DNA of 64,000 bases from a virus, in IMG/VR virus record IMGVR_UViG_3300046804_002762, positions 31,681 through 95,680 of that record. The stretch is one strand, 5' to 3'. The position numbers and the translations under genes were made by a program. Positions 41,301-59,092 of this stretch are shown here, piece after piece. The notes beneath the pieces were generated by a model. That model did not search any database, was not told the origin of the DNA, and saw nothing but the letters and a program-made list of their open reading frames with translations. Every line of letters starts with the position of its first letter. Positions within the stretch are counted from its first letter, which is position 1.

Positions 41301-41864
41301 ACTGTTACTCAGTATGAAGGAGATTTTGGAATTATTTCTGGAATTTCAACAACTTCAGTTGGAGTTGCTTCTACTGGTATTGTTTTCGATTTTGCTATAC
41401 CAAAAGATTCTATTCTTAGAGTTGTTGGTATTGCATCAACTTCAATAACTGGAGTTACTACAATTAGTGGCATACAAACTGGATATTATTTTGCAGTATT
41501 TAATTCTAGAGTTGGTAGTGGAGTAACTTCTTTGGATGAAAATCGGCAGATTATTGGTATAGGGACTACTGGATTGGATAACATTTATAAAGTTGCAAGT
41601 GTTTCATTAGCACAAACTTCAGTGCCGGGGTTGGGAGTAACTTATGTAGCCAGAGTTACTGTTAGTGTGTCTGGATATAATGGTTTAAGTGGCATAGGAA
41701 ATAGTTCCTTATTTGCAGAATATAGTTGGGGTAAAATTACATTAAAAACCAGAACAAAGGATAATGAATATAATTCATATACAAGATCTGGATTTTCGGG
41801 AATATCAACAGGAACTATGATAATGAGAACCAATCCTCTTAAATATTATAATTATGGTATATGA
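29388..41864 (+). CDS. Giant baseplate/tail structural protein with YHYH domain (gp7 position)
   Basis: 4158 aa in one open frame, starting 4 bases after gp6. The N-terminus (IQIKDIVNNQLPQYVKEDYP, FLKQYYLSQEFPGGPVDLI) and an early segment (IDDELILYETKTLTGFEKCY) are those of the cyanophage protein in the gp7 position; T4 gp7 is only 1032 aa. Around residues 1255-1375 a YHYH domain is visible (IIGWSYDGHPIYGPYGY, then FIEDFVYQ and GTYAYF). Much of the rest consists of short β-rich repeats with SGxGY...P-V-I (over ten copies), Ser/Thr-rich. Probably builds wedge and extended fibre-like decoration that touches the host. Naming it gp7 is inference from position. Confidence 0.8.
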   Translation: MTEKRIQIKDIVNNQLPQYVKEDYPLVAEFLKQYYLSQEFPGGPVDLIQNIDRYIKVDNTTELVDYVLLQSDISIIEENISVDFLNFEQNQIDFPDNYGLISIDDELILYETKTLTGFEKCYRGFSGIISHKNVNVGIASTYSLRPSDELIFKKSEASSHKSGTKIYNLSSLFLKEFLLKLKYQLTPGFENRSFVEKANEATIIKQIKDFYRSKGTDQSFKILFRSLYGEDVEVIRTKDFLFRPSDAQYKITNDFIVEKISGPIEKITNLTLFQDEYLNIPKSYGTITEPLEEIVSEDGKIFYKLKIDGGYNRDLIYDGSTYGNFSVHPKTRVIGNYNIQSTSIDVDSTVGFPNNGEFLVTYEDGTQGVILYNSKSLTQFIDCTNITKNILDNSIISVNTYAYANTDDGEEIRVRIVSTLNNLDIPDDNTLFSEGDTIKIKTLGFEDGDSRLNSWLFNLPITYDVESYSIFDNFDNTYSLTLKDNHTLKVGDTLQIIDNLGNTKQSTIIDVTSDKTILIVGQGFLPESLYKIKRNILKGKSSKYSYIGEISTNIQNIYTNKNNDILIASPSIPYYPNCDLNLNNRSVSFSGSYKSGSTIFKLTSSTDHGFYTGDSVYYTPEKETIQTNDIDGNTNSFEIIASSLFDEGIYFVKRIDKNNIKLAKSKSDILYEKYVSPEDDVVINDNKIEFIEFSGKEIRSQKLLREISNPIISEKKETTIPGFTGILINGTEILNYKSKDKIIFGPIEKIDVVSGGSDYDVINPPKLIISDSVGSGATGHCSVSGSLKEIRILDPGFDYLEDPIVQITGGNGIGAVAKCNTKLITHKSTFNAEKGSGLVGIGSSISTVGFSTYHKFRNGEEVIYKTNSHKAVGGLSTDSKYYISTVSTTKIKLHRTLGDAISGINTITLSDYGIGNHDFECVNKKRILSSISVENSGSGYQNKKRTTSYSGIDISSDTITIENHGFLSGEIIKYTTTGTVIGGLVKDRNYYVLRIDDNQFRLCEIGTGNYVPDYFYKTSQFINLTSRNSGVHVFNYPNIEVNIIGSVGISSNYKARIDPIFRGEITSFHLELKGSSYGIEEVFNIERQPSVNILSGSGSEFDLIVSNGRIQKVLINSVGQNYTCSPDLIVVGDGVGAVLSPVVLNNQIIDVEVIEPGAGYSADNTRIIASHPGSGAKFNCKIKTWTVNLFTKYLNIFAEDDGCLSPGLNSEYELEYCHLYAPRKLRQILYSKDQSGKILFSNPDLKFSRNREIKSKDHSPIIGWSYDGHPIYGPYGYSKKSGGIVSQMKSGYKLSLNQNRPSRNYFPPGFFIEDFVYQKSNDESVLDENNGRFCITPEFPNGTYAYFSTFEELSVDSSGPFKGYYRPKFPYLIGNSYNSKPNDFNFKKKSNQDSIDLNRTDWVRNTYAYNITKTNSRYEYITLPNNLNQSIDVIGVSPGSIDSIGISTGGDGYKVNDNLVFNNIDSEGKSRTFGSLVSAVVSELAGKSISTISVASTSLYNVSIYPSNKKGEYILYNNSPHTISNNDLFTISGLNTTSNIIGGNYIAGVTTNRLVLVGLGTTTVGIASANITGIVTYISVRGNLDFPNIRENDIFSIDEEKIKVLNVDKKSSRLRILRQIDNTPGLSHSVTTIIYENSRKLFVKVPKENDITNYNSYLKNKQIYFNPQESLGIGTVGIGTTIYFSNPGVGATQVFIPLRTIYLPDHGLNTGDLLTYNVNSGNSIIISSTGIGTATLSDNSSVYVARINENLIGISTVQVGLGSTGFFSGITTSTKNIGLLFFAGIGTGTYHSFKTNYPEVNCDISQYVATVSTAQTHGLTTDDVVDVVVSSSATTITIKYNDFNRRIIVNPRDFVGSDISTSNNTITIQNHGYINGQRVIHTSSSPSGGLVDNKMYYIVSINKDIIKLSNSYYDSTIERPNTINITSASNGTISPINPPIDLYRNSIVTFDLSDSSLSYTNNSKTYSAFKFELYSDNQFEKVFDSDQQDNNFNVQRAGAVGTSGATLTLKIDESLASTLYYNLLPLDYTGLFLPDQKKEIIKDDTVNSRNQLRIKNSIYNGTYKIRVSEPNSFQYFLSSDPEVKSYTSGISTTSTLSSYLKYTTKSLTATGPISDIKITNKGTNYYSLPAITSVSSLNGNGCILDARSNTIGKIKKIKIVNGGFDFTSDKTLKPYASFPKNIKIDNLFSISNIGISSQGRGYTTAPKLVVLDGKTKKVVPSDLSYNLGDNQVTIKINANGLTDSIPTIIPTQNSNGIGITDIIYNPSTKEAKVYLPFSFSDIGDFDANTYPIRVNDRVLIENISVGVNSTYRGFNSSNYDYSLFTITSIDLNIGGVSAVTYSLDGYLSESEFPGKYDPVNSSGRIIAERNFPIFNPSIKQNQYKKGETVKSNNSFGIVENWDPITRYLKISSKDNFKNNSIVEGLSSKTIGTASSITDLNSHAKTDFSIKVEGGWQSNAGFLNDNIQRIQDSLYYQNFSYSLKSKIDYDTWSDAVSALNHSVGFRKYSDFQMESKLDNDFSNLFVGLSTDTTATNVKVELTSYGDLNCVTDFDLGKENYLNINSKVVSDKIYFDNKPLTDYYEARGNRVLLIDDVSSQFNSGERPEKYSDIYKFNINTSRSLKFLSYIRDKKFTGQRQVMLTSLIHNGSYGSINQYGRIETAYDLGSFDFIIDQPYGVVRFYPTRYSINNYDVALLSYNLDDAFIGVGTTSIGSIASVYTNNIVSSASTINVVSLATTYTSSKILVQIFRDNLNYQFNELNVVHDGTNIDFIEYGELSTKTRSTYSSTGYGTYYPYISGGTLKIDFIPNVSIGNSFYINTANVALGDTNSSGIGTIELEYGEIRVNSVSIPSSPTPSSSTILSFTGEHDCAYCLVQVSDITNNRHTFSEVILIVDDLTSEPLITEYGNVQTFAGLGTIGASVTGIGSTTQLLFTPLPNIETQVKVYANLLGLEGNNTSSYSLSNLDINSQYGSYAGTEVDQVRTFNLTHKGYPIFERYFSANDSSIVDLSRNTIKIPSHFYSTGEKVVYETNFGEPIGIATTTIAGIGSTDKLPNTLYIVNLNNNKVRVAASASEALRPIPKVLDFTSFGIGTQHKFLSQNKNSRVVVAIDNIVQSPIVSTGLTASLTSPIFLTDESIILNDSTSFYGGDLIKINEEVMRITSIQKGNVVTVRRSWMGTDIDTHPISSLVNKVVGSYNIVDNNISFAAAPYGNVPQTYSTSPPDEQDWVGISTGSSFSGRCFMRSGIQGSSDDTYSKNYIFDDIATGFNGTNSTFTLKSSLSNITGISEEGALILINDIVQSRGLSGDLENARKGINFTLSESSGITSVTFIGSTSSVSYDINSSGLPKGGIIVSVGSTEGLGYQPLVSAGGTAIVSLAGTVQSISIGNTGSGYRASSYYDIPTSISSIVGVGSTTIFIKNENSVFGLLNLLNTGSNCSIGVGTFILSTNIVSVGSSFVRIGIGSISSKQIPIGTPVNIKVLNPQVGIVNVGISSTSSENSTITNVGFTTIIKGKISESVTITKVVTGYTSTNPPQVIIYDPLSYSDIPLVYSSSSISGVGTASSIDIVVGQGSSVIDFEIKNTGYNYRSGQILTIPTGGLTGIPTTSSFKEFQISIQEVFDDTFTGWAFGELQILDDISDLFDGERVAFPLKYFGELISIRSARGSNINPQELLLVFVNDVLQEPGKGYIFNGGSNIFFTEPPKPPVLEIPNTGDSCKILFYKGTASVDVVYKNITETVKPGDGLTLGFDSSLNQSYGLQEDERVVDAILASDLVSTNPYYGPGNTKDETLTRPITWCRQTEDKIINEQEVSKDRMLYEPVINPSAYLIKSVGIGSTTVFVDNLRPIFNQVNENKSPIPAFQDEFLSFQKQITFIPQETKTNAFATAVVSVAGTISSIAISTGGFGYVSVPDVVIQNPIGFGDTCRAEAIATVSSGIVTSITVTSPGIEYSQDNPPIVLISPPSFESETNTVTQYEGDFGIISGISTTSVGVASTGIVFDFAIPKDSILRVVGIASTSITGVTTISGIQTGYYFAVFNSRVGSGVTSLDENRQIIGIGTTGLDNIYKVASVSLAQTSVPGLGVTYVARVTVSVSGYNGLSGIGNSSLFAEYSWGKITLKTRTKDNEYNSYTRSGFSGISTGTMIMRTNPLKYYNYGI

Positions 41865-43444: not shown

Positions 43445-46400
43445 ATGTCTCAGAAAACTAATTTAAACGTATCACCATATTTTGACGACTTTAATCCCAA
43501 TAATGATTACCATAGGGTTCTTTTTAAACCAGGATATCCAGTTCAAGCTAGAGAATTAACCACTCTCCAATCAATATTACAAAATCAAATTGAAAAATTT
43601 GGTCAGCATTTTTTTAAAGAAGGGGCAAAGGTAATATCAGGTAACACTGGATATTCACAATTATATTATTGTGTTCAGTTGGAAAATAATTATCTTGGAG
43701 TTCCGGTTGCAGCATATATTGATCAACTTGTTGGTGCAAAAATAACAGGTCAAACATCCGGTGTTACCGCTGTGGTTGATAAAGTATTATTACCACAGGA
43801 CTCGGAAAGAGGAAATCTTACTCTATACATAAATTATTTGGGTTCTAGTACTCAAAATAATTCCACTCAAGAATTTTCTGATGGAGAGTTGTTAACTTCT
43901 AATATTATAATTACATCCGGTCTTCTTGGAAATACCTCTATTGCAGTAGGAGAACCTTTTGCTTCAACAATTTCTACTAACAATTCTGCCGTTGGATCAT
44001 GTTTTAATATATCAGAAGGTGTTTATTTTATAAGAGGGCAGTTTGTCAATGTAAAAAAAGAAACTTTAGTACTAGATCAATATACAAATAAACCAAACTA
44101 TAGAGTTGGACTTTATATTGATGAAAAAATAGTAAATTCAAATACAGATGAGACCCTGAATGATAACTCCCAGGGATTTAACAATTACGCTTCTCCAGGA
44201 GCAGATAGATTAAAAATATCAGCATATTTATTCAAAAAATCATTAACAGATTTTGATGATGGAAATTTTGTGGAGCTTGCCACTATTGTAGATGGCACAA
44301 TTCGCTCAAAAACAGAAGATGATAAATATTCGTTCATAAAAGATGAGTTGGCAAGAAGGACCTATGCTGAATCTGGAGACTACTTAGTTTCTCCATTTGA
44401 CGTTTCAGTAAGAGAATCTCTAAATGATCAAAAAGGGAATGATGGTATATTTAATAAGAACCAAATTACCTATGGTGGAGACACCCCAAGTGAAAGTAAG
44501 GTAGTTTATAAAATATCTCCAGGAAAAGCATTTATCAGAGGGTATGAAGTAGAAACAATTTCTACTTCATTTTTAGATGTAAATAAACCGAGAACCACAC
44601 AAACTTTAGAAAATCAGTCAATTGTTTATAATACTGGTTCATCTTTAAAGCTTAATAGAGTTTATGGTTCTGCTCCTGTCGGATTAGGAAATACTTTTGT
44701 CTTAAGTTTAAGAGATGAAAGAGTAAATTCTTCTAGCACATCAAGTTCTGGAAAAGAAATAGGTCTTGCTAGAGTTTATGATTTTTGGTTGAACTCCGGT
44801 TCATATAGTATTTCAAATACAAATTTAAACGAATGGAATATTTCATTATATGATATTCAAACTTTTACAAATATTACATTAAATAATCCAATTACTCTTT
44901 CTACTCCAACTTTTATTAAAGGAAATAATAGTGGAGCAACAGCATTTTTAAGAGATAATGTTACTGTTGGAACGGCTTTAACTTTATATGATGTAAAAGG
45001 TACATTCATTCCATTCGAATCACTTTCCTTTGATGGAATTAATTCCGGATTAATAGGTATTGCAGTTACGACATATGGAATTTCCGATGTAAAATCAGTT
45101 TATGGTAATGTAAGTTCTGCATCAACCTTTTCCGCAGATACTATACAATCAACTGCTTTTAATATAGGAATTGCAACAATAAGTGCAACGTCTGGTGGTG
45201 TAAGTACTGTAAGAAGTTCTAATACTCTCTTTCCAGGAAAAATTGTTAAAGTTGGAAATTTAGTTAAATATACGGATACAACAAAACCAGATCCAGTAGT
45301 AGCAAAAGTAATTGGTGTTGGTGCATCAACTATTTCTATAGTTGGAGTGACTACCGTAAATGGAATAGTGAATGGTTCTTTACCATCATCATCTCTGAAT
45401 GTAACGGATTTTAGGGTAATTAAAACAGATTTGGAAAGATCAACAGATAATACATTATATACAAAACTTCCAAAAAATAATATATCTAATGTAGATATTT
45501 CAAATTCTATTCTCATTGTAAGAAAAACATTTACTGTCAATATTTCTGACAATAAACTTTCTGCAGTAGTTACTTCAAGTGCAAATGAGACTTTTTTACC
45601 TTTTACAGAAAAAAGATATTCTTTAGTAAGATCTAATGGAACTGTCGAGATTTTAACTTCAGATAAATTCGAATTTACTTCCGGTGGAACAGAACTGCAA
45701 ATTTATAATCTTGGTTCTAATGATACAAATGCTACTTTGGTGGCAACTTTACAGAAAATAAAACCAAAAGAAAAAGTTAAAAGGAAGACTAGAGTAAATT
45801 CTATAGTTGTTTCAAATTCAAAATATGAAGGATCTGGAATCGGGGGCACTACTTTAAATGATGGTTTAGTATATGGAAAATATCCATATGGAACTAGAGT
45901 TCAAGATGAGAATATATGTCTAAATGTTGCTGATATTATAGAAATTCATGGCATTTATGAATCCGAAGATACTTCAAATCCCTCATCTCCCAAAGCGGTT
46001 TTAGCATCTATTACAAGTCCGTCCTCTACAACTTCAGAATTAATAATAGGGGAAGAAATTTTAGGATCAACTAGTGGTGCTACAGCTATTGTTGCAGAAA
46101 AATTAACTTCATCGCAAATATCTTTATTATATAAAAATGCAAATAGATTTAGTGAGGGAGAAACAATTACTTTCTCAGAGTCAAACATCCAAGCACAAAT
46201 ATTAACTTTAGATACTCCAAGTTTTGACGTTTCTTTTAATTATACCTTTAATAGAGGTCAAAATGGAAGTTTTTATGATTATGGTTATATAACAAGAAAA
46301 TCTAGTGCAACTGAACCAACTAAAAAATTAAAAATATATTTTTCAAATGGATATTATGAATCAACTGATGATGGAGATATTACAACAGTAAATTCATATA

Positions 46401-49400
46401 ATTCTTTTAATTATACTTCCGATATTGGTTCTATAAACGGCACTAGAAATACTGATATTATTGACATCAGACCTGTAGTAAATAATTATTCCGTTTCAAC
46501 AGGATCTCGTTCTCCTTTGGAATTTTATGGAAGAACTTTTGATTCTACTTCAAATTCCGCAAGCAGTATTTTGTCCTCGGATGAGACTTTAATCACATCA
46601 TTCTCATTTTACTTGGGAAGAATTGATGCAATTTATTTGTCAAAAGAGGGTAAGTTTCAAGTAAAATATGGAACACCTTCAGAAAAACCACAAAATCCAG
46701 TTTCATTGGATGACTCTTTACAAATAGCAACAATCTCTTTACCTCCATATCTATATTCTGTAGAGCAAGCATCAATAAGATTTTTGGAATATAAAAGATA
46801 TAGAATGAGTGATATAAAAAATCTTGAAAATAGAATTAAAAATCTTGAATATTACACTTCTCTTTCTCTATTGGAAACAAATACTTCAAATTTGTTTATT
46901 TCTGATTCTGACGGTTTTAATAGATTTAAATCTGGATTTTTTGTAGATAATTTTACATCATATTTGCCCCAGGAAACTGGTTCGGATATTAATAATTCTA
47001 TTGATATTCAATTCAAAGAATTAAGACCAAAAGCTTATCCAACTTCAATAGATTTAACACCGGGATATTCTTCCACAAATACAACTACCGCCGATTTGGC
47101 ATTTGAAAATCCAGATGGCATAAACATTAGACGATCTAATAATATTATAACTTTAGATTATGCAGAAGTTGAATGGTTAAAACAATCTTTTGCGACAAGA
47201 TCCGAAAGCGTAACTCCATTCCTCATTAGTTTCTGGCAAGGAACTGTTGAACTCACCCCAGCATCAGATACTTGGATGGATACTGTTAGGATTGAGGCAA
47301 AAATTATTAGTGCTGAAGGCAATTATGCAGAAACACTAGCAAATGCTTCTAGAACACTAAATGTTAATCCTCAAACAGGATTTGCTCCTACCGTTTGGAA
47401 TGCTTGGGTTACTAACTGGACTGGCCAAGATACTATAACAACAACCGCACGAAGAACTGTTTTGGGACAAGCTACAGCAGGTTGGGGAAGAGTGGCGCTG
47501 TGGGGCACTTTAACTGATACTACTTTTGAAGACACAATCAGAGAAGTTAGAGATACTGGTGTTATGTCAAGAACCGGTACTCAAACAATAGTCACCGAAC
47601 AATTTGATAGAACTTCTGTTGGGGATAGAGTTGTTAGTAGAGATATTATCCCATTTATGAGATCCAGAAACGTTCAGTTTGTTTCTAAAAAAGTCAAACC
47701 CCTAACACAATTATATGCTTTCTTTGATGGGGTTGATGTAACAAAATATTGTGTTCCAAAATTACTTGAAATCACAATGCGATCTGGCGTTTTTCAAGTC
47801 GGAGAAACTGTAACGGGATATATTCAATCAACTACTGGACAACAATCATCTCACATAACCTTTAGAGTGGCACAAACAAACCATAAAGAAGGTCCATATA
47901 ACTTAGCTTCAGTAACATATCCAAGAAATCCATACAATTCTCAAATTCTTCCCCCAACATATTCATCAACATCAACTATTTTAAATGTTGATACATTTTC
48001 CCTATCAAACAATTCTCAAGGAGAATATAGTGGATGGGTAAAATCTGGAATGGTTTTAATTGGTCGAACTAGTGGAGCACAAGCCACTATTACTAATGTA
48101 AGACTGTTCTCTGATCTTTCTGCTACTTTAATTGGCAGCTTTTATATTCCCAATCCAAATACTAACGTTCATCCAAGATTTGAAGCTGGCACAAAAACAT
48201 TCACTCTCTTAAATAACAATACAAATGACCAAAATGCAGCTTCTACTATAGCAGAAGAAGCATTTACGTCGAGTGGTACTATAGAAACAGTCCAAGAAAA
48301 CATTATTTCTATAAGAAATGCAAGAATTGAAAATAAACAATTATTTGAGGAGCAGGCAGTTTCAAGAACGACTGGATCTCAAGTAGTTAACAGTAGAGTT
48401 ATCGCACAAACTCAAAGACTCGGTATTATTGGATGGTATGATCCTCTTGCACAATCATTTCTAGTTGATAATGAAGACGGTGTTTTCCTGACTAGTTGTG
48501 ATGTATTCTTCAAAACAAAGGATGATATAGATATTCCGGTTACTTTCCAATTAAGAACTATGAAGGGAGGATTCCCTACTCAATATGTTCTACCATTATC
48601 CGAAATTATACTTAATCCGGATCAAGTTAATGTATCGGGAGATGGATCTGTAGCAACTAGAGTAACATTTAAAGCACCAGTTTATTTGGAAGGGGGAGGC
48701 GAATATTGCATTTGTCTTGCATCAAATTCCACAAAATATAGTGTTTATATATCTAGAATAGGTGAAAATGATTTGCTCACACAAACGTTCATATCAAATC
48801 AACCATATCTAGGTTCTTTATTTAAATCACAAAATGCTTCTACATGGGAAGCTAGTCAGTGGGAAGACCTCAAATTTACTTTATATAGAGCAGATTTTAT
48901 TGAAAACGGTTCTATAGATTTTTATAATCCAGAGTTAACTGAAGGTAATGCACAAATTGCAAAGTTAGCGCCAAATTCTCTACAATTTAATTCTAAAAAA
49001 ATTAGAGTAAGTCTCTCATCTACTATTTCAGACTCTGGCATAAAACTTGGAAATACTATAATTCAACAAAATTCTAGTGGAAGAGGAAATTATGTAGGAA
49101 GTGCAGGAAGTGCAACGGGGACTCTTTCTATAAGTAATCCAGGTATTGGATATACACCAACTCCAGGTTCTGGTGGATATACATTCAATAACGTAAGTTT
49201 AACTACAATTACTGGTAAAGGTACCGGAGCTACAGCAAATATAACTATTTCAAACGGTGTAGCTGCAGCAGCAACAATTGTTAGTGGTGGAAGTGGATAT
49301 CAGGCAGGGGATGTTCTTGGAATCAGTAGTATTGGAAATTCCCCTGCGGGAAGAAATGCAAGGCTAACTATAGTTTCAATAGGAAACACAAATCAAATTG

Positions 49401-50896
49401 TCATAGACAATGTTCAAGGCGAATTTGAAACTGGTGTGGGAAAAACTATCAGATATATTAATAGTTCTGGAATTACTACTAATTTAAATGCATCTTTGGG
49501 CGGAAATATACTTGCAAATCAAATTATTGCAGAAAGTGATGGTTTGCATATAAAAGTAAATCATACAAATCATGGAATGTATTTTAACAATAATTTTGTT
49601 AAAATATTTGGTGTAGAATCTGACGTAAGACCAACCAAATTAACCGCCGAATATGCATCAGATTCTACGGGAGTAATAACTGTTGAAGATTCTTCACAAT
49701 TCACAAGTTTTGAAGGTGTTGGAGTTGGAACAACAAATCCAGGATATCTCCTAATAGGAGAAGAATTGATAGAATATACTTCAGTTGTTGGTAACACTAT
49801 TGGAGGAGACATAGTTAGAGGTTTATCCTATGGTCCCAATGCCACTGCAGTGACTCACCCAATAAATTCTACTGTTTATAAATATGAAATTAATAATGTT
49901 TCTCTTCGAAGAATTAATAAAATTCATGATTTAAATGACGTAACATTAGAAAATCCAATAGGATTTGACTACTACAATATTAAGTTGGACATGTCTTCTG
50001 ATGGCATAGATAGAACTACTGGCATAGGATTTAGCAATCTATATCAAAGTATAACTAAATCATCTGGTGGTTTTAATATAAAAGCATCTCAAAACATTCC
50101 ATATGAAATTATTTTACCAAACGTTCATAATGTTACTGTAAAAGGAACTTCACTAAGTTCCGAATTGCGAACTGTTACTGGAAAAAGTATAAGTGGAAAT
50201 GAAATACCATTCATTGATAATGGATTTGAACCTGTCACAATAAGACAAAACAATTATCTTTCTTCCCCAAGAATTATTTGTTCCAAAGTTAATGAAGATA
50301 ATTTATTATCAGATTTACCGGAAAACAAATCTTTAACACTAAAACTTAATTTAGGAACAACAACACCTTATCTTTCTCCAGTTTTGGATAGTCAAAGAAT
50401 AAGTGTTCAACTTATTTCAAATAGGGTCAATAATGTTATTAGCAATTATGCAACTGACAATAGGGTTAATTCAATTTCAGAAGATCCAACTGCTTTCCAA
50501 TATATTTCAAAAGAGATAAACTTGGAAAATTCATCAACTTCGCTTAAAATAATTTTAGAGGCACATATTAATTCATATTCTGATATAAGAGCTTTCTATT
50601 CTATTGGCGAAAATCCTGGATTTTCTCCAATATTCACTCCATTCCCCGGATATGATAATCTAGATGAAAAATCTCAAATTATTTCTTTAGAAAATAGTAA
50701 CGGAAAATCAGATTTATTTGTAACACCAACAAATTCTTTAGAGCATATTTTAAATGATAGCGACTTTAAAGAATATGTATTTACAGTTGATAATTTGCCA
50801 GCATTTAGAAACTTTAGAATTAAATTATTAGGAACATCAACAAATCAAGTTTATGTTCCAAGAATAAGAAATTTAAGAGTAATTTCTCTTGCATGA
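43445..50896 (+). CDS. Very large virion structural protein with DUF4815 N-terminus
   Basis: 2483 aa. Residues 10-60 (DFNPNNDYHRVLFKPGYPVQ, ARELTTLQSILQNQIEKFGQ) are the DUF4815 signature found in tail proteins of large phages. The following ~700 aa are β-rich; a middle part (about 1120-1420) holds VTPFLISFWQGTVELTPASD and FDGVDVTKYCVPKLLEI, also typical of this cyanophage protein; around 1880-1960 are SNPGIGYTPTPGSGGY and SGGSGYQAGDVL repeats. It occupies the place of T4 gp9-gp12 genes, so it is probably a distal baseplate or fibre protein; adhesion is inferred. Confidence 0.8.
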   Translation: MSQKTNLNVSPYFDDFNPNNDYHRVLFKPGYPVQARELTTLQSILQNQIEKFGQHFFKEGAKVISGNTGYSQLYYCVQLENNYLGVPVAAYIDQLVGAKITGQTSGVTAVVDKVLLPQDSERGNLTLYINYLGSSTQNNSTQEFSDGELLTSNIIITSGLLGNTSIAVGEPFASTISTNNSAVGSCFNISEGVYFIRGQFVNVKKETLVLDQYTNKPNYRVGLYIDEKIVNSNTDETLNDNSQGFNNYASPGADRLKISAYLFKKSLTDFDDGNFVELATIVDGTIRSKTEDDKYSFIKDELARRTYAESGDYLVSPFDVSVRESLNDQKGNDGIFNKNQITYGGDTPSESKVVYKISPGKAFIRGYEVETISTSFLDVNKPRTTQTLENQSIVYNTGSSLKLNRVYGSAPVGLGNTFVLSLRDERVNSSSTSSSGKEIGLARVYDFWLNSGSYSISNTNLNEWNISLYDIQTFTNITLNNPITLSTPTFIKGNNSGATAFLRDNVTVGTALTLYDVKGTFIPFESLSFDGINSGLIGIAVTTYGISDVKSVYGNVSSASTFSADTIQSTAFNIGIATISATSGGVSTVRSSNTLFPGKIVKVGNLVKYTDTTKPDPVVAKVIGVGASTISIVGVTTVNGIVNGSLPSSSLNVTDFRVIKTDLERSTDNTLYTKLPKNNISNVDISNSILIVRKTFTVNISDNKLSAVVTSSANETFLPFTEKRYSLVRSNGTVEILTSDKFEFTSGGTELQIYNLGSNDTNATLVATLQKIKPKEKVKRKTRVNSIVVSNSKYEGSGIGGTTLNDGLVYGKYPYGTRVQDENICLNVADIIEIHGIYESEDTSNPSSPKAVLASITSPSSTTSELIIGEEILGSTSGATAIVAEKLTSSQISLLYKNANRFSEGETITFSESNIQAQILTLDTPSFDVSFNYTFNRGQNGSFYDYGYITRKSSATEPTKKLKIYFSNGYYESTDDGDITTVNSYNSFNYTSDIGSINGTRNTDIIDIRPVVNNYSVSTGSRSPLEFYGRTFDSTSNSASSILSSDETLITSFSFYLGRIDAIYLSKEGKFQVKYGTPSEKPQNPVSLDDSLQIATISLPPYLYSVEQASIRFLEYKRYRMSDIKNLENRIKNLEYYTSLSLLETNTSNLFISDSDGFNRFKSGFFVDNFTSYLPQETGSDINNSIDIQFKELRPKAYPTSIDLTPGYSSTNTTTADLAFENPDGINIRRSNNIITLDYAEVEWLKQSFATRSESVTPFLISFWQGTVELTPASDTWMDTVRIEAKIISAEGNYAETLANASRTLNVNPQTGFAPTVWNAWVTNWTGQDTITTTARRTVLGQATAGWGRVALWGTLTDTTFEDTIREVRDTGVMSRTGTQTIVTEQFDRTSVGDRVVSRDIIPFMRSRNVQFVSKKVKPLTQLYAFFDGVDVTKYCVPKLLEITMRSGVFQVGETVTGYIQSTTGQQSSHITFRVAQTNHKEGPYNLASVTYPRNPYNSQILPPTYSSTSTILNVDTFSLSNNSQGEYSGWVKSGMVLIGRTSGAQATITNVRLFSDLSATLIGSFYIPNPNTNVHPRFEAGTKTFTLLNNNTNDQNAASTIAEEAFTSSGTIETVQENIISIRNARIENKQLFEEQAVSRTTGSQVVNSRVIAQTQRLGIIGWYDPLAQSFLVDNEDGVFLTSCDVFFKTKDDIDIPVTFQLRTMKGGFPTQYVLPLSEIILNPDQVNVSGDGSVATRVTFKAPVYLEGGGEYCICLASNSTKYSVYISRIGENDLLTQTFISNQPYLGSLFKSQNASTWEASQWEDLKFTLYRADFIENGSIDFYNPELTEGNAQIAKLAPNSLQFNSKKIRVSLSSTISDSGIKLGNTIIQQNSSGRGNYVGSAGSATGTLSISNPGIGYTPTPGSGGYTFNNVSLTTITGKGTGATANITISNGVAAAATIVSGGSGYQAGDVLGISSIGNSPAGRNARLTIVSIGNTNQIVIDNVQGEFETGVGKTIRYINSSGITTNLNASLGGNILANQIIAESDGLHIKVNHTNHGMYFNNNFVKIFGVESDVRPTKLTAEYASDSTGVITVEDSSQFTSFEGVGVGTTNPGYLLIGEELIEYTSVVGNTIGGDIVRGLSYGPNATAVTHPINSTVYKYEINNVSLRRINKIHDLNDVTLENPIGFDYYNIKLDMSSDGIDRTTGIGFSNLYQSITKSSGGFNIKASQNIPYEIILPNVHNVTVKGTSLSSELRTVTGKSISGNEIPFIDNGFEPVTIRQNNYLSSPRIICSKVNEDNLLSDLPENKSLTLKLNLGTTTPYLSPVLDSQRISVQLISNRVNNVISNYATDNRVNSISEDPTAFQYISKEINLENSSTSLKIILEAHINSYSDIRAFYSIGENPGFSPIFTPFPGYDNLDEKSQIISLENSNGKSDLFVTPTNSLEHILNDSDFKEYVFTVDNLPAFRNFRIKLLGTSTNQVYVPRIRNLRVISLA

Positions 50897-52169: not shown

Positions 52170-53585
52170 ATGCTAAATCCTTTTTTTCAACAAGGAACTC
52201 CACTGGAGCAAGGATTAATACAAGATTTAATTAATGAACAATTGAGAATGTATGGTGTAGAAGTGCATTACTTACCAAGAAGATTTATAACTGAAAGGAA
52301 AATTATAAAGGAAGTAATAGAATCTGCTTTTGATTCTGCATATCCAATAGAAGCATATGTAAATAGCTATGAAGGTTATGCAGACAATTCTACTATTTTG
52401 TCAAAATTTGGAATACAAGCATTAAATGAAATAGTTTTAACTATTTCGAGAGAAAGATTTTCGAATTATATTTCTCCACTAATAAAGAATAAAAATAATA
52501 TAAAATTATCATCAAGACCAAAAGAGGGAGATTTAATTTATTTTCCTCTTGGAGATAGATTATTTGAAATAAAGTATGTAGAGCATGAAAAACCTTTTTA
52601 CCAACTTCAAAAAAACTATACCTATGAATTAACATGCGAACTATTCAGATATGAAGACGAAGTTATTGACACTAGTATTGATGAAATAGATGATGTTCTT
52701 TCTGGAATAGGAACAGATTTGGATTCTGGATTTACTGCTATTGGACCAATACAGACACTTACTATGATTGGTATTGGTATAACTGCAACAGCCAGCACTA
52801 CTTTAGTAAATGGTGGAATAAGGTTTATTACTATAACAAATAGAGGAGGTGGTTATACTAGCACTCCTAGAGTTGCTATATCATCTGCACCAGATGGGGG
52901 ATTTACTGGGATTGCAACAGCAATTATGATTGGGGGAGTTGTTGCATGTAATGATAATGTAAATCCATCAGCAAAATCAGTTCAAGCAGTTAATTTAATA
53001 AATCCTGGATATGGTTATACAATAGTACCAGGAATTAGATTTATTGGAGGAGGTGGTGCTGGTGCGGCTGCAACGGCATCCATAGGAAATGGCATTATAA
53101 GCAATATTACAATTTCAAATGCAGGTTCTGGGTATACTTCTTCTCCAACAATAACTTTTACAGGAGAATCTTCTGTCTCTGCCGCCGCGACTGCAATTAT
53201 AAGTGAGGTAGGGTCAATTACATCTATACAGATAACAAATTCTGGACTAGGCTATACTCAGACACCATCAATAACTATTTCTCCACCTTCCATGTCTGGA
53301 ATTGGAACGTATCAATTTAATGAAATAATAACTGGATCTATTAGTGGAACTACGGGAAGAGTTCGTTCTTGGAATTCGGTGACTAAAAAGTTAGAAGTTG
53401 CCACAGTAAGTGGGGAATTTATTGTTGGTGAAAGTATAGTTGGAACTGCATCATCATCTTCTTACAAATTGAGAATTGTTAATACTGATGTTGTCGATGA
53501 CGGTTATTCGGACAACACTGATATTGAAATAGAATCCAGCAAAATTATTGATTTTTCAGAAATTAATCCATTTGGTATGCCATAA
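52170..53585 (+). CDS. gp14: gp14-like neck protein with β-repeat extension
   Basis: 471 aa, against 256 in T4. N-terminal ~170 aa are gp14 (QLRMYGVEVHYLPRRFITER, IVLTISRERFSNYISPL, GDLIYFPLGDRLFEIKYVEH). Residues ~190-400 are an inserted run of Gly-rich repeats (ITNRGGGYTSTPRVAIS, INPGYGYTIVPGIRF, ISNAGSGYTSSPTITFTG, ITNSGLGYTQTPSITIS). The gp14-like end resumes with IESSKIIDFSEINPFGMP. Neck assembly is inherited from gp14; the repeats may project outward. Confidence 0.85.
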   Translation: MLNPFFQQGTPLEQGLIQDLINEQLRMYGVEVHYLPRRFITERKIIKEVIESAFDSAYPIEAYVNSYEGYADNSTILSKFGIQALNEIVLTISRERFSNYISPLIKNKNNIKLSSRPKEGDLIYFPLGDRLFEIKYVEHEKPFYQLQKNYTYELTCELFRYEDEVIDTSIDEIDDVLSGIGTDLDSGFTAIGPIQTLTMIGIGITATASTTLVNGGIRFITITNRGGGYTSTPRVAISSAPDGGFTGIATAIMIGGVVACNDNVNPSAKSVQAVNLINPGYGYTIVPGIRFIGGGGAGAAATASIGNGIISNITISNAGSGYTSSPTITFTGESSVSAAATAIISEVGSITSIQITNSGLGYTQTPSITISPPSMSGIGTYQFNEIITGSISGTTGRVRSWNSVTKKLEVATVSGEFIVGESIVGTASSSSYKLRIVNTDVVDDGYSDNTDIEIESSKIIDFSEINPFGMP

Positions 53586-54633: not shown

Positions 54634-55068
54634 ATGAAAATGACAAAAAAATTCGATAAGTTGAATGAGACCTTTAATACTGGTGGAGACATTGTTCCAG
54701 TCGAGACAGAGGCAGTTATAGAAAAAATTGAAAAAGTTGCATCTGTAGTTGATGATATAAAAAAAGATTATGATTACACTAGAGGAAATTTATATTCTCT
54801 TATAGAAAAAGGTCAGGAAGCAATTAATGGTATTTTAGAACTTGCTCAAGAAAGTGAAATGCCTCGTGCTTATGAAGTTGTGGGACAGTTAATTAAAAAC
54901 GTTGCAGATGCAACCGATAAATTAATGGACTTACAAAAGAAACTTAAAGATATAGAAGAGGAAAGAGTTAGTAAAGGTCCAACCACTGTCAATAATGCAT
55001 TATTTGTAGGATCTACTGCAGAGTTGGCAAAACTTTTAAAACAACAGTCTCAAGATAATCCAGATTAA
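54634..55068 (+). CDS. gp16: gp16-like terminase small subunit
   Basis: 144 aa (T4 gp16 is 164). Central coiled coil DDIKKDYDYTRGNLYSLIEK, GQEAINGILELAQ, PRAYEVVGQLIKNVADATDK match the gp16 core helices that form the ring recognising packaging substrate. Two bases after gp15. Confidence 0.85.
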   Translation: MKMTKKFDKLNETFNTGGDIVPVETEAVIEKIEKVASVVDDIKKDYDYTRGNLYSLIEKGQEAINGILELAQESEMPRAYEVVGQLIKNVADATDKLMDLQKKLKDIEEERVSKGPTTVNNALFVGSTAELAKLLKQQSQDNPD

Positions 55069-55074
55069 TAAATA
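55067..55074 (+). promoter_or_regulatory. Late-promoter-like box AATAAATA
   Basis: One mismatch from consensus, overlapping the gp16 stop, 23 bases before the 700-aa gene. Confidence 0.4.
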
Positions 55075-55096: not shown

Positions 55097-57199
55097 ATGC
55101 CAAAGTTGAAATCTCATAAAACAGTTGAGCAGATTGCAAAGAAGCATCGTCTTGACGTTTCTTTCATTCAAAAACAATTGGATATGGGAGAACCAATTGA
55201 GCATGAGCATACAAAAGATCATGAACTTGCTATGGATATTGCACTTCAACATTTAGATGAAATTCCAGATTATTATACTCGTTTGAAAAAAATGGAAGCA
55301 GATGCTAAAAAGCATCATAAAAAATTCAAAGATGTAAAAGAGGAAGATGAATTTGATATGGATGTTCCGATGCATTCAGTGCATTTAGAATATGATAAAA
55401 GATACTGTCCAAAGTGTAAAAAGGTAGAACTGAGAAGTGAATGTAAATATGGACCGATTTGTTGGGATATTTACTCAATTCCATCAAAGTTAAAAGAAGA
55501 AACTAAATCTGGAGATGAAGGTCTTCACGATTGGTTTAATAAATCTAAATCTAGTAATGGTAAGAAAGGATGGGTTCAACTAGGCGGTAAATGGGCAGGA
55601 AAACCCTGTGCTCGTCAACCTGGACAAACTTCTACACCAAAATGCGGAAGTTCTAAAATGTCAGCAAATCTTTCCCCAGAAGAAGAAGAGAGAGCAAGAG
55701 CAAGAAAAAATAGACAAGATCCCAATCAACCCCAAAAAACTGGCGGGGCAAAACCAACTAACGTAAGAACTGAAGAGATGGATTTACAAGAAGTCAAAGA
55801 CAAACCAAGTAAAGGTAGTGGTAAAAAAGACGCTTGCTATAATAAAGTTAAATCGAGATATGACGTTTGGCCAAGTGCATATGCATCTGGAGCACTAGTC
55901 AAATGCCGTAAAGTTGGTGCTGCAAACTGGGGAACTAAATCGGAGTCTACAATGCACAATCACGAAGAAGAACGTTATTGCCCTTTGTGCGATAAAAGAG
56001 AAACAAGATCTGAGTGTTCTTATGGTGGAAAAGCGTGGGATAAGGTATCAGTAAAAGATGAAGAGTATTCAATGGTAAGATCTGAACTTGAAACTTTAAT
56101 GAATGCAGCTGAAAGGCTTAAAGCAAAAGTTGGAAAAGGTGAAGGTAACCTTGAAGCTTGGGTTCAATCTAAAATAACTAAAGCTGCTGATTATCTTGAT
56201 ACTGCAGCAGATTATGTTGTGAGTGGAGAAATGGAAGAATCTTGCTGGTCTGGCTATAAACAAATTGGTATGAAAAAGAAAGGTAAGAAAGCAGTCCCAA
56301 ACTGTGTGCCAGAAGAAACAATTGAAGATTTAAATGGAGAAACCTTTGCTGAAGTAGTGGACATTATTAAACCAGAACCAATCAAAGGATTTAAATCACA
56401 AATGAGCGAATCTACCAGAATTCAAGCACAGACTGGTAATGTCGTGGCAGTAACGTTATCTTGGAGAGGAAAATACTATTCCTTAAAAATATTCTTTCCT
56501 CAAGCTAAGATTCCAACACGTAAAGAGATTAATGATGAACTTCAAAAGGTTTATCCTGGTTGCAATTTAGTTTATCATTATGTATCTGAACTGCAATCCG
56601 GACAACCCCTTATTCAAAGCGGAAGTTTTGCAAAGCCTGGTCCAAATAAAAATTATGTAAAGCCTATGGGCGAAGAAGTTGAAATTAATGAGGGAATGAC
56701 CCTTAAAGATTATAAGAGAAAGCGTAGTGCTTTGAAGCAAAAGGAAAAGAGAGCAGCAGATAAGACTGCCCCTGGTCGCAGAGCAGGTATTCACGCAGAC
56801 AAAGCATCACCAGAAAGAGCAGCAAGACATCGTGCGAATGTAGACCCCGATTTTGATGGTAATGATGAAAGAAATTATCCAGGTGGTAAATTGAATCCCA
56901 AAAAGGTTCGTAAAGCAAAAGCACTAGGAGAACTTGGTGAAGATTGGCAAAAAGTAAATCGACAAGATAAAACTGATGGATTAAGTCAAAAGGCAGTTAA
57001 TGCTTACCGTAGAGAAAATCCAGGTTCAAAATTGCAAACAGCGGTCACGGAAAAGAAGCCAACAGGGAAAAGAGCAGATAGAAGAAAATCTTTTTGTAGT
57101 CGTATGACCGGAATGAAAAAGAGATTAACTTCCACTGAAACCGCAAGAGATCCAGATTCAAGAATTAATAAAGCACTTCGTCGCTGGAATTGTAATTAA
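55097..57199 (+). CDS. 700-aa mosaic basic protein between terminase subunits
   Basis: A chain of small phage domains: residues 1-70 DUF5661-like (QKQLDMGEPIEHEHTKDHEL, DEIPDYYTRLKKME); a Cys cluster CPKCKK...C...C (104-122) and a near copy CPLCDK...C (295-307); a Gly/Lys/Cys segment KKGWVQLGGKWAGKPCARQP (156-175) with KTGGAKPTNV; KKDACYNKVKSRYDVWPSAY (243-262) with ASGALVKCRK; a helical NLEAWVQSKITKAADYLDTA (351-370); a β-domain (440-500, AVTLSWRGKYYSLKIFFPQA); and a C-terminal RRKSFCSRMTGMKKRL...DPDSRINKALRRWNC. Each piece is common in phage proteins of unknown role, usually as separate genes. Basic and Cys-containing, so a virion or DNA-binding role is likely but unproven. Confidence 0.7.
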   Translation: MPKLKSHKTVEQIAKKHRLDVSFIQKQLDMGEPIEHEHTKDHELAMDIALQHLDEIPDYYTRLKKMEADAKKHHKKFKDVKEEDEFDMDVPMHSVHLEYDKRYCPKCKKVELRSECKYGPICWDIYSIPSKLKEETKSGDEGLHDWFNKSKSSNGKKGWVQLGGKWAGKPCARQPGQTSTPKCGSSKMSANLSPEEEERARARKNRQDPNQPQKTGGAKPTNVRTEEMDLQEVKDKPSKGSGKKDACYNKVKSRYDVWPSAYASGALVKCRKVGAANWGTKSESTMHNHEEERYCPLCDKRETRSECSYGGKAWDKVSVKDEEYSMVRSELETLMNAAERLKAKVGKGEGNLEAWVQSKITKAADYLDTAADYVVSGEMEESCWSGYKQIGMKKKGKKAVPNCVPEETIEDLNGETFAEVVDIIKPEPIKGFKSQMSESTRIQAQTGNVVAVTLSWRGKYYSLKIFFPQAKIPTRKEINDELQKVYPGCNLVYHYVSELQSGQPLIQSGSFAKPGPNKNYVKPMGEEVEINEGMTLKDYKRKRSALKQKEKRAADKTAPGRRAGIHADKASPERAARHRANVDPDFDGNDERNYPGGKLNPKKVRKAKALGELGEDWQKVNRQDKTDGLSQKAVNAYRRENPGSKLQTAVTEKKPTGKRADRRKSFCSRMTGMKKRLTSTETARDPDSRINKALRRWNCN

Positions 57200-57215: not shown

Positions 57216-58862
57216 ATGCCAAATGATGTCTATCTTGGTAATCCTTTATTAAAAAAAGCAAATACACCAATTGAGTTTACTCAAGAGCAAATTCTTGAGT
57301 TTGCCAAGTGTCAAAATGATCCAGTTTACTTTGCAAAAAACTATGTAAAAATTGTAACTCTTGACCACGGATTGCAATCATTTAAGATGTATCCGTTTCA
57401 AGAAAAATTGGTTAATAATTTTCATAAGCATAGATTCAATATTTGCAAGATGCCACGACAGACTGGTAAGTCTACAACTGTTGTGTCATTCCTGCTCCAT
57501 TATGCAGTCTTTAATGACAATGTTAACATAGGTATCCTAGCAAACAAAGCAGCAACAGCAAGGGAACTTCTAGATCGTCTCCAAACTGCATATGAGAATC
57601 TCCCAAAGTGGATGCAGCAAGGTATCATCTCTTGGAATAAAGGTTCTTTGGAACTTGAAAATGGATCAAAGATCTTAGCAGCATCAACCTCTGCATCTGC
57701 TGTCCGAGGAATGTCATTTAACATTCTATTCTTGGACGAATTTGCATTCGTTCCAAACCATATTGCAGACTCATTCTTCGCATCAGTATATCCCACTATT
57801 ACTTCTGGTAAGCAAACTAAGGTTATTATAGTTTCTACACCACACGGTATGAATCATTTCTACCGAATGTGGCACGATGCTGAAAAAGGTAAAAATGAAT
57901 ATGTCTTCACTGATGTTCATTGGAGCGAAGTTCCGGGCAGAGATGAAGTATGGAAGGCACAGACAATTGCTAACACTTCAGAACAACAATTCAAAGTTGA
58001 ATTTGAGTGTGAGTTCTTGGGATCTGTTGATACTCTTATTGCACCATCCAAACTCAGAACCCTCGTGTATGACCATCCTAAGACCCGTAGTGCAGGTTTA
58101 GATGTTTATGTGGATCCTATCGAGGAACACGACTACTTGATTACTGTAGACGTTGCTAGGGGGGTGGGAAACGATTATTCAGCATTCGCTGTGATTGATA
58201 TAACTCAGTTTCCTCATCGGGTGGTTGCGAAGTATAGGAATAATGAAATCAAACCAATGTTATTTCCAAGTGTTATTCATGAGATGGCAAAAAGTTATAA
58301 TAATGCATATATTCTATGTGAAGTTAATGATGTTGGCGACCAGGTAGCAAGTATTCTTCAATATGATTTGGAATATAATAATCTATTAATGTGTTCTATG
58401 AGAGGTAGGGCAGGGCAAATAGTTGGACAAGGATTTTCTGGAAAAAAGACCCAACTTGGCGTTAAAATGTCAAAGACCGTCAAAAAAGTTGGATGTCTGA
58501 ATCTGAAGACAATGATCGAAGAGGATAAGTTATATTTAAATGATTATGAGATTATCGCTGAACTTACTACATTTATTCAAAAACATAATTCTTTTGAGGC
58601 AGAAGAGGGGTGTAATGATGATCTTGCAATGTGTCTAGTGATTTATGCTTGGTTAGTAGCTCAAGACTATTTTAAAGAACTTACCGACCAAGATGTTAGA
58701 AAAAGATTATATGAAGAACAAAAAAATCAAATTGAACAGGATATGTCTCCATTTGGATTTATAAGTGATGGATCGGACGAAATAAGTTTTACTGACCAAG
58801 ATGGAGATAGATGGTATGTGGATGAGTATGGAGATCGTGCTTATATGTGGGAGTATATGTAA
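57216..58862 (+). CDS. gp17: gp17-like terminase large subunit
   Basis: 548 aa (T4 gp17 is 610). ATPase: Walker A PRQTGKST (80-87), Walker B LFLDE (171-175), coupling motif VSTPHG (206-211). Nuclease: VDVARGVGNDYSAF (311-324, catalytic Asp312), CEVND downstream and the GCNDDLAM motif near 460 carry the other acidic residues. The motor packages DNA into the prohead through gp20 and cuts concatemers. The stop overlaps the next gene's start (TAATG). Confidence 0.95.
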   Translation: MPNDVYLGNPLLKKANTPIEFTQEQILEFAKCQNDPVYFAKNYVKIVTLDHGLQSFKMYPFQEKLVNNFHKHRFNICKMPRQTGKSTTVVSFLLHYAVFNDNVNIGILANKAATARELLDRLQTAYENLPKWMQQGIISWNKGSLELENGSKILAASTSASAVRGMSFNILFLDEFAFVPNHIADSFFASVYPTITSGKQTKVIIVSTPHGMNHFYRMWHDAEKGKNEYVFTDVHWSEVPGRDEVWKAQTIANTSEQQFKVEFECEFLGSVDTLIAPSKLRTLVYDHPKTRSAGLDVYVDPIEEHDYLITVDVARGVGNDYSAFAVIDITQFPHRVVAKYRNNEIKPMLFPSVIHEMAKSYNNAYILCEVNDVGDQVASILQYDLEYNNLLMCSMRGRAGQIVGQGFSGKKTQLGVKMSKTVKKVGCLNLKTMIEEDKLYLNDYEIIAELTTFIQKHNSFEAEEGCNDDLAMCLVIYAWLVAQDYFKELTDQDVRKRLYEEQKNQIEQDMSPFGFISDGSDEISFTDQDGDRWYVDEYGDRAYMWEYM

Positions 58863-59092
58863 TGGAATTGGATAAGCAGATAAATTTGGGACATTTATTA
58901 CTAACAGATAGAAAATGTAGAAGTTGCAGTGAAATTAAAAATTTAATAGATGGATTCTATAGGACAAGAAAGAATAGAGGTCCTGTTGCATCTTCTTATT
59001 CTTATGAATGCAAAGAATGTACAATAAAAAGAATAATTAACTCTAGAAAAAAACAAGAATCATCATTTGAAAACACATATCCAGATTGGTAG
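58862..59092 (+). CDS. Small zinc-ribbon-like protein
   Basis: 76 aa from ATG in a TAATG overlap with gp17; the GTG at 58847 is less likely. Two Cys pairs (CRSC, CKEC) with FYRTRKNR between and after them resemble the Cys4 zinc module at the N-terminus of phage HNH/endonuclease VII-type proteins, but no catalytic part follows. Could be an accessory of packaging or a free zinc module. Confidence 0.6.
   Translation: MELDKQINLGHLLLTDRKCRSCSEIKNLIDGFYRTRKNRGPVASSYSYECKECTIKRIINSRKKQESSFENTYPDW

Follow-up and report, generated by a model that had tools for sequence, protein, structure and literature searches.

The 700-residue protein encoded between gp16 and gp17 of a T4-like cyanophage is a string of beads, in which about nine kinds of block fill ten positions in the order A-B-C-D-B-E-F-G-H-I. 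The blocks are shuffled among relatives and exist elsewhere as stand-alone or adjacent genes near a capsid gene, relatives of the protein are detected in virions, and the joints between blocks carry a prohead-protease-like motif that is rare in the stand-alone genes. The best explanation, to which we give slightly better than an even chance, is an internal head (core) protein, of the same type as the T4 core proteins, which would be cut at its joints into micro-domains.

Gene, locus and family

The window analyzed, 64,000 nucleotides of a 95.7-kb virus record (IMG/VR IMGVR_UViG_3300046804_002762, positions 31,681 to 95,680), derives from a T4-like cyanophage. The T4-type genes gp25, gp6, gp8, gp14, gp15, gp16, gp17, gp18, gp19 and gp20 were identified, and Synechococcus phages, among them S-SCSM1, S-SM2 and S-SRM01, give the closest DNA matches. 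The window ends before gp21, the prohead protease gene. Profile matches to both neighbors confirmed that the open reading frame lies between gp16 and gp17, as originally predicted. The features of the locus are the following:

54634..55068, + strand: gp16, terminase small subunit, 5' neighbor of the fused gene (phrog_445, 3.5e-55)
55067..55074, + strand: late-promoter-like AATAAATA, fitting the consensus NATAAATA, 30 bp 5' of the start codon of the fused gene
55097..57199, + strand: fused micro-block protein, 700 aa, T4-GC119 / phrog_727 family
57216..58862, + strand: gp17, terminase large subunit, 3' neighbor of the fused gene (Terminase_6N/6C)

The protein matches PHROG family phrog_727 (E 5.3e-113), which is listed as of unknown function. 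A tblastn match to the protein was found in 513 phage records, among them records noted as T4-GC119. The family is thus the T4-GC119 of GenBank notes, whose placement between gp16 and gp17 the window shares, and the gene as such was already known. The cyanophage late-promoter consensus was taken from PMC2984593, and similar matches lie 24-49 bp 5' of gp25, gp8, gp13, gp15, gp18 and gp20; the total number of such matches is not above chance, and their placement before gene starts is only suggestive of late promoters.

Several other features of the window were observed. An endonuclease-VII-like open reading frame of 81 aa (phrog_4723, 58847-59092) overlaps the end of gp17, the position at which homing endonuclease remnants have been described in cyanophages (PMC3037559). 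The gp14-like neck protein (52170-53585) has a C-terminal extension at about residues 270-371 of the GxGYTxxPxIxF repeat type, which recurs in PHROG families of virion proteins, including baseplate wedge and tail-fiber families. The gp8 gene is flanked by giant open reading frames at 29388-41864 (4158 aa) and 43445-50896 (2483 aa).

Block architecture

The blocks of the 700-residue protein are:

55097..55333, + strand: block A, residues 1-79, DUF5661 (Pfam match at residues 11-67, 3.9e-13)
55391..55483, + strand: block B1, residues 99-129, first CPxC...C knuckle (pLDDT ~90)
55514..55753, + strand: block C, residues 140-219, HDWF/KKGW...C...C (the stand-alone form matches DUF5872)
55811..55936, + strand: block D, residues 239-280, KKDACYxKVKSRYxVWPSAYASGALVKCRKVGAANWG
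55967..56056, + strand: block B2, residues 291-320, second CPxC...C knuckle (pLDDT ~80-86)
56060..56230, + strand: block E, residues 322-378, helical hairpin
56234..56314, + strand: block F, residues 380-406, CWxGY...NCV
56384..56656, + strand: block G, residues 430-520, beta-beta-alpha-beta domain (pLDDT ~90)
56684..56929, + strand: block H, residues 530-611, very basic, a rare insertion (~4% of close relatives)
56945..57196, + strand: block I, residues 617-700, DUF6321, basic (+15), with C667 and C699 (Pfam match at residues 623-697, 7.7e-15)

The original prediction of a mosaic of at least six separable pieces holds, and the pieces it named are real; blocks E (322-378), F (380-406) and H (530-611) had been overlooked. 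The Pfam search placed DUF5661 at the N-terminal end (50 bits against a Pfam cut-off of 27) and DUF6321 at the C-terminal end (55.7 bits against 28.5), and gave no other Pfam match in the 700-residue protein. In an alignment of 74 close relatives, blocks are gained or lost whole with the joints intact, residues 81-130 occurring in ~30% and residues 531-610 in ~4%. Profile searches of 270 loci recovered the blocks in many orders as well as in stand-alone genes. The order A-C-D-B-E-F-G-I is also seen among the relatives, S-SCSM1 has C-D-F-B-G-I, S-B43 has C-D-F-G-B-I and S-SM2 has E-C-D-F-G-I; shorter strings occur in S-SM1 (B-C-D-F-I), P-HM1 (G-I) and S-WAM2 (B-I).

The AlphaFold model of the whole protein is a bead string with a pTM of 0.25, in which the B and G beads are confident. 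The protein has a net charge of +33 and a pI of 9.3, with basic blocks and acidic linkers. Sequence searches against NCBIfam and the PDB yielded nothing useful, and Foldseek found no significant match to the whole-protein model. With block G alone, the best Foldseek match was YkzG, the RNA polymerase epsilon subunit (probability 0.92, E 0.24), followed by phi29 p6 at a probability of 0.51; the modeled likeness to YkzG is not significant and is treated as a weak lead.

Relatives contain further small segments. Cysteine-paired micro-motifs outside the nine profiles (KCKxGYYYCYTDKKCKPIPxGY, DCxNPKGFSQxAHCQGRKK and MHNHxGEECPVHGKxxCP) occur in loci L007, L003, L118, L135 and L242. In L026, L035 and their relatives, the first CPxC block is replaced at about residues 115-145 by a cysteine-free helical block, IMKKHDMTAKxLHNAFVxKxxKTPDDWI.

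CPxC blocks and cysteine pairs

The two CPxC clusters had been described as near-identical, at residues 104-123 and 295-310, and their duplication as a sign of internal growth. The cysteines are located at 104, 107 and 116 and at 295, 298 and 307, and the measured identity between B1 and B2 is 58%. B2 is ~86-91% alike within its own class, and B1 belongs to a separate, often absent class that is ~50% identical to the B2 class. B1 is therefore more probably an old paralogue or an import, which weakens the case for internal growth, and a recent tandem duplication of the CPxC block was rejected as the simple reading. Block B is modeled confidently as a hairpin-helix, and only three of its cysteines are conserved, against the four ligands of a zinc ribbon.

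In each of blocks C, D, F and I a single cysteine pair is conserved; relatives have either both cysteines or neither. Where the alignment spans both positions, the two cysteines occur together in 135 (C), 88 (D), 90 (F) and 204 (I) distinct sequences; the pair is missing from six variants of block D, of the type KFDVYPSAYANAWAAKEYKKRGG. The pattern fits a disulfide or a metal-binding pair in each block, and falls short of proof.

Stand-alone blocks and their gene neighborhoods

The pieces had been predicted to be separate small genes elsewhere, and I, D, C, G and A were all found as stand-alone genes or domains. Block I is a gene of its own in many phages, mostly of ~83-114 aa. It lies immediately 3' of the capsid gene in P-SCSP1k and between the scaffold and capsid genes in HTVC201P, and it also stands alone in Lederberg EXVC029P. 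The structure of P-SCSP1u was set aside as direct evidence for block I, the passages searched in that paper being silent on the small gene 3' of the capsid gene. Block D alone can form a gene of 45 aa. All six matches to it in the genome collection come from metagenome-assembled genomes (MAGs); the one at L187 neighbors a capsid-like phage gene, and a cellular origin of the block was rejected. Block A occurs alone in Caulobacter phage Cr30 (73 aa) and, in Vibrio phage VPs20, inside a DUF2213 protein that adjoins a DUF2184 gene.

I, D and C are also found as three separate adjacent genes, in the order I-D-C on one strand at 55 of 55 loci, with the D and C genes mostly overlapping by 1 base. Where checked, these loci are downstream of a major head protein gene (phrog_371). 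Among 71 D/C loci, 34 contain a phrog_371 capsid homologue, 33 of them upstream; where at least 3.6 kb of upstream DNA is available, the figure is 21 of 28. The phages with separate I-D-C genes are, judged by their capsid protein, not T4-like. I, D and C are already neighbors in a head module, so the fused protein represents a gene-fusion link among the three.

Protease-like motif at the joints

The T4 prohead protease gp21 cuts after the Glu of L/I-x-E (PMC9026906), and in gp23 of cyanophage S-PM2 the sequence at the expected mature end is MLNE↓VAVNSLG (arrows mark actual or putative cuts). In the fused proteins such triplets precede nearly every block, as in IEE↓GKKDACYHK, LQE↓VKDKPGKGSGKKDACYHK, LDE↓KCWPGY, VSE↓GAAWTKK, IDE↓DWQSVN and VDE↓ATRLQAQTGN. 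A first, stricter test, of L/I at -2 over all linker Glu residues, gave no clear enrichment (0.110 at -2 against 0.113 at -3). In windows around the starts of blocks C, D, F, G and I of the fused proteins, [LIVM]xE was present at 215 of 241 joints against 94.5 expected when each window was shuffled (z 19), a comparison for which L/I/V/M and the windows were chosen after the aligned joints had been inspected, in which the shuffles leave shared ancestry in place, and in which V and M at -2 exceed the T4 rule. Among 18 diverse proteins the corresponding figures are 66 of 77 joints against 26.5 (z 9.9). The offset controls were weaker, with [LIVM]E at 102, [LIVM]xxE at 135 and Ex[LIVM] at 133 of the 241 joints. 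The stand-alone genes, mostly from non-T4 lineages, have the motif in 5 of 38 (D), 1 of 27 (C) and 4 of 39 (I) cases, and the motif thus belongs to the fused context rather than to the blocks.

Candidate sites in the 700-residue protein include:

55496..55498, + strand: B1/C joint, E134 of LKE↓E
55790..55792, + strand: C/D joint, E232 of LQE↓V
56237..56239, + strand: E/F joint, E381 of MEE↓S
56408..56410, + strand: before the fold of G, E438 of MSE↓S
56690..56692, + strand: G/H joint, E532 of INE↓G
56939..56941, + strand: H/I joint, E615 of LGE↓D, with LGE↓L also at 612

Altogether, candidate cuts fall after residues 82, 134, 232, 381, 406, 438, 532, 612 and 615. Five of these joint sites (LKE134, LQE232, INE532, LGE612 and LGE615) follow the strict L/I-x-E rule, and further triplets, inside blocks or elsewhere, start at residues 30, 53, 496, 524 and 650. 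Cutting would yield the predicted pieces A; B1; C; D-B2-E; F; G; H; and I.

Capsid-targeting starts and detection in virions

A T4 internal head protein starts with MKTYQEFIAE↓A, a capsid-targeting sequence (CTS) in which positions 4 and 7 matter for targeting and positions 8 and 10 for processing (PMC9026906). Sister genes of the fused gene keep these four positions in their starts: MKSFKQFLSE↓S in stand-alone G, MKNFKEFIEE↓A in an E-F-C-C-D-G protein, MKTFKAFISE↓E in a HicA-F-I protein and MKTYSQFIVE↓H in an I protein. A single homologous family, stand-alone G, supplies most of the 18 CTS-like starts counted among 291 block open reading frames; in the 3687 other open reading frames there are 6. 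Three of these six adjoin the fused gene, including that of the virion-detected S-CREM2 gp136. The 700-residue protein itself starts with MPKLKSHKTVEQ and has no N-terminal 10-residue CTS, and most fused forms likewise have none. Within the fused proteins as a whole there is no excess of the CTS motif (2 against 1.7), which is confined to the N-termini of sister genes. Given the DUF2213/DUF2184 context in VPs20, block A is a candidate for mediating prohead entry of the 700-residue protein.

In relatives, the separate G gene with its capsid-targeting-like start (MKSFKxFLSE, L083:6734-7066 and similar) is often directly 3' of the fused gene; the window has no such downstream gene, and gp17 starts 17 bp past the fused gene. 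The HicA-F-I protein (L164:2617-3240, 208 aa) has, besides its T4-like start, blocks F and I and a toxin domain of HicA type (PF07927, 1.1e-12), joined at VDE↓ and IDE↓, so that the toxin domain resembles prohead cargo. A literature search found no paper on cyanophage capsid-targeting sequences or head polyproteins.

In phage S-CREM2 two genes share the blocks: gp137, flanked by the terminase genes, has a G-like block and I, and gp160, close to the primase gene, has C-F-D. Matched by coordinates to Table 3 of PMC10665884, both were detected in virions by mass spectrometry, ORF160 (128342-129235) with 7 peptides and 13.1% coverage and ORF137 (108049-109521) with 4 peptides and a thin 4.1% coverage. 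S-SCSM1 ORF29 is named 'virion protein' in the record from a mass spectrometry study of CsCl-purified virions (PMC9602691), and this name suggests that it is among the 45 proteins detected. The link to the head proposed in the original prediction is supported by these detections and by the loose blocks near capsid genes. Of the two observations named as counting against that prediction, the blocks are indeed separate genes in other phages, but absence from virions is contradicted by the reported presence.

Proposed mechanism and alternatives

In the proposed mechanism, small micro-domains, most of them basic and many with a cysteine pair, are strung together by acidic linkers; the chain would be made late and enter the prohead core, where gp21 would cut it after the Glu of the L/I/V/M-x-E joint triplets. 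Single micro-domains would stay behind in the head alongside the DNA, and some might leave with the genome on ejection, as T4 internal proteins do. One cysteine pair, bonded as a disulfide or through a metal, would hold together each of blocks C, D, F and I. Prohead entry, cutting, location inside the head, ejection and disulfides are inferred. Association with the virion is, in our judgment, very probable, a location inside the head probable, and cutting at the joints moderately likely. The wider proposition of a dsDNA phage polyprotein, whose micro-proteins are fused in T4-like cyanophages and would be separated by the head protease into internal head proteins, we place a little short of even. 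Some of its beads would be the counterparts of the small genes that stand side by side close to the capsid gene of unrelated marine phages, and the scheme could also carry effectors, such as the HicA-type toxin. If the joints are protease sites, bead order and copy number would be free to change, which would explain how beads shuffle, split and fuse.

An internal head protein that is not cut, acting as a flexible chain that binds DNA or zinc multivalently and condenses or organizes the packaged DNA, or is ejected whole, would suit the charge distribution, the bead-string model and the virion detection of relatives; it gives no role to L/I/V/M-x-E at the joints of five unrelated blocks, rare in their stand-alone forms, and we regard it as unlikely. 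The blocks might instead be ejected anti-host effectors, for example binding RNA polymerase or nucleases, with the chain as their delivery vehicle. The sister protein joining a CTS start, a toxin domain, blocks F and I and LxE-type joints points in this direction, as does the resemblance of block G to YkzG, but the latter match is not significant, and blocks I, D and C, which are conserved and widespread, are not host-tuned. Though compatible with the best explanation, this reading is somewhat more doubtful than that of an uncut chain.

A link to packaging had been suggested from the position; in this reading the protein would be an accessory factor acting with the terminase or in DNA packaging. 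Synteny is strong: within the flanking DNA examined, gp16 is upstream of 88 and gp17 downstream of 96 of 114 distinct fused proteins, and the order is never reversed. However, the interval between gp16 and gp17 is known in cyanophages for its hypervariable insertions (PMC3037559, PMC4928673); elsewhere it also carries unrelated cargo (tail-fiber, petE, PTOX and zwf genes). The same blocks are at home close to the primase gene of S-H34 and S-CREM2 and, in non-T4 phages, beside the capsid gene and not the terminase. The position therefore says little about a terminase link, and presence in finished virions fits a structural protein better. The data lend no support to a direct role in terminase action, and an accessory one is very improbable. 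We give equally little credence to a tail-fiber, baseplate or outer decoration component. Tail-fiber genes adjoin the family gene in S-SCSM1 and S-SM2, and virion detection alone would fit any place in the particle; yet no fiber or receptor-binding fold was found in the protein, its loose blocks accompany scaffold and capsid genes elsewhere, and its sister genes have T4-type CTS starts.

Significance and comparison with known systems

T4-like cyanophages are among the most abundant marine viruses, and many of their virion proteins, GC119 included, are without an assigned role. If the internal, cut head protein is the correct reading, the L/I/V/M-x-E joints and MKxFxxFxxE starts would provide a sequence rule for finding the head cargo of marine phages, and the protein would be a polyprotein, a rarity in tailed phages. 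Once released, the beads might serve as DNA-binding proteins, shield or alter the genome after injection, or target the host.

The protein belongs to the same family (T4-GC119 / phrog_727), at the same gp16-gp17 place, as the genes of S-SM1, S-SM2, S-B43, P-HM1, S-SCSM1 and others, whose products are labeled hypothetical or structural. S-PM2 has no annotated GC119 gene between gp16 and gp17, so some cyanophages can do without it, and S-PM2 was rejected as a source of mass spectrometry evidence. T4-GC119 has been read as part of a mobile cassette (PMC3037559); in the literature it is known as a cluster only, and we found no description of its blocks, of their joints or of the stand-alone forms. 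DUF5661 (PF18905, block A), DUF5872 (PF19197, stand-alone C) and DUF6321 (PF19846, block I) are families without function that have been described singly, and no description of their joint occurrence or of the I-D-C gene cassette was found in the literature. Among T4 proteins, the head cargo IPI, IPII, IPIII and Alt share with the sister genes the 10-residue CTS start and the I/L-x-E cut motif. The T4 internal proteins shed a short N-terminal propeptide and stay one protein, whereas here the motif is at nearly every joint and the protein has no CTS of its own. T4 gp22, gp67 and gp68 are cut at several L/I-x-E sites, with some fragments staying in the head (PMC9026906). These three are scaffold or core parts, whereas here most of the predicted fragments are conserved modules, several of them genes of their own elsewhere. 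New here is the protease-like motif that is present at the fused joints and rare in the stand-alone genes.
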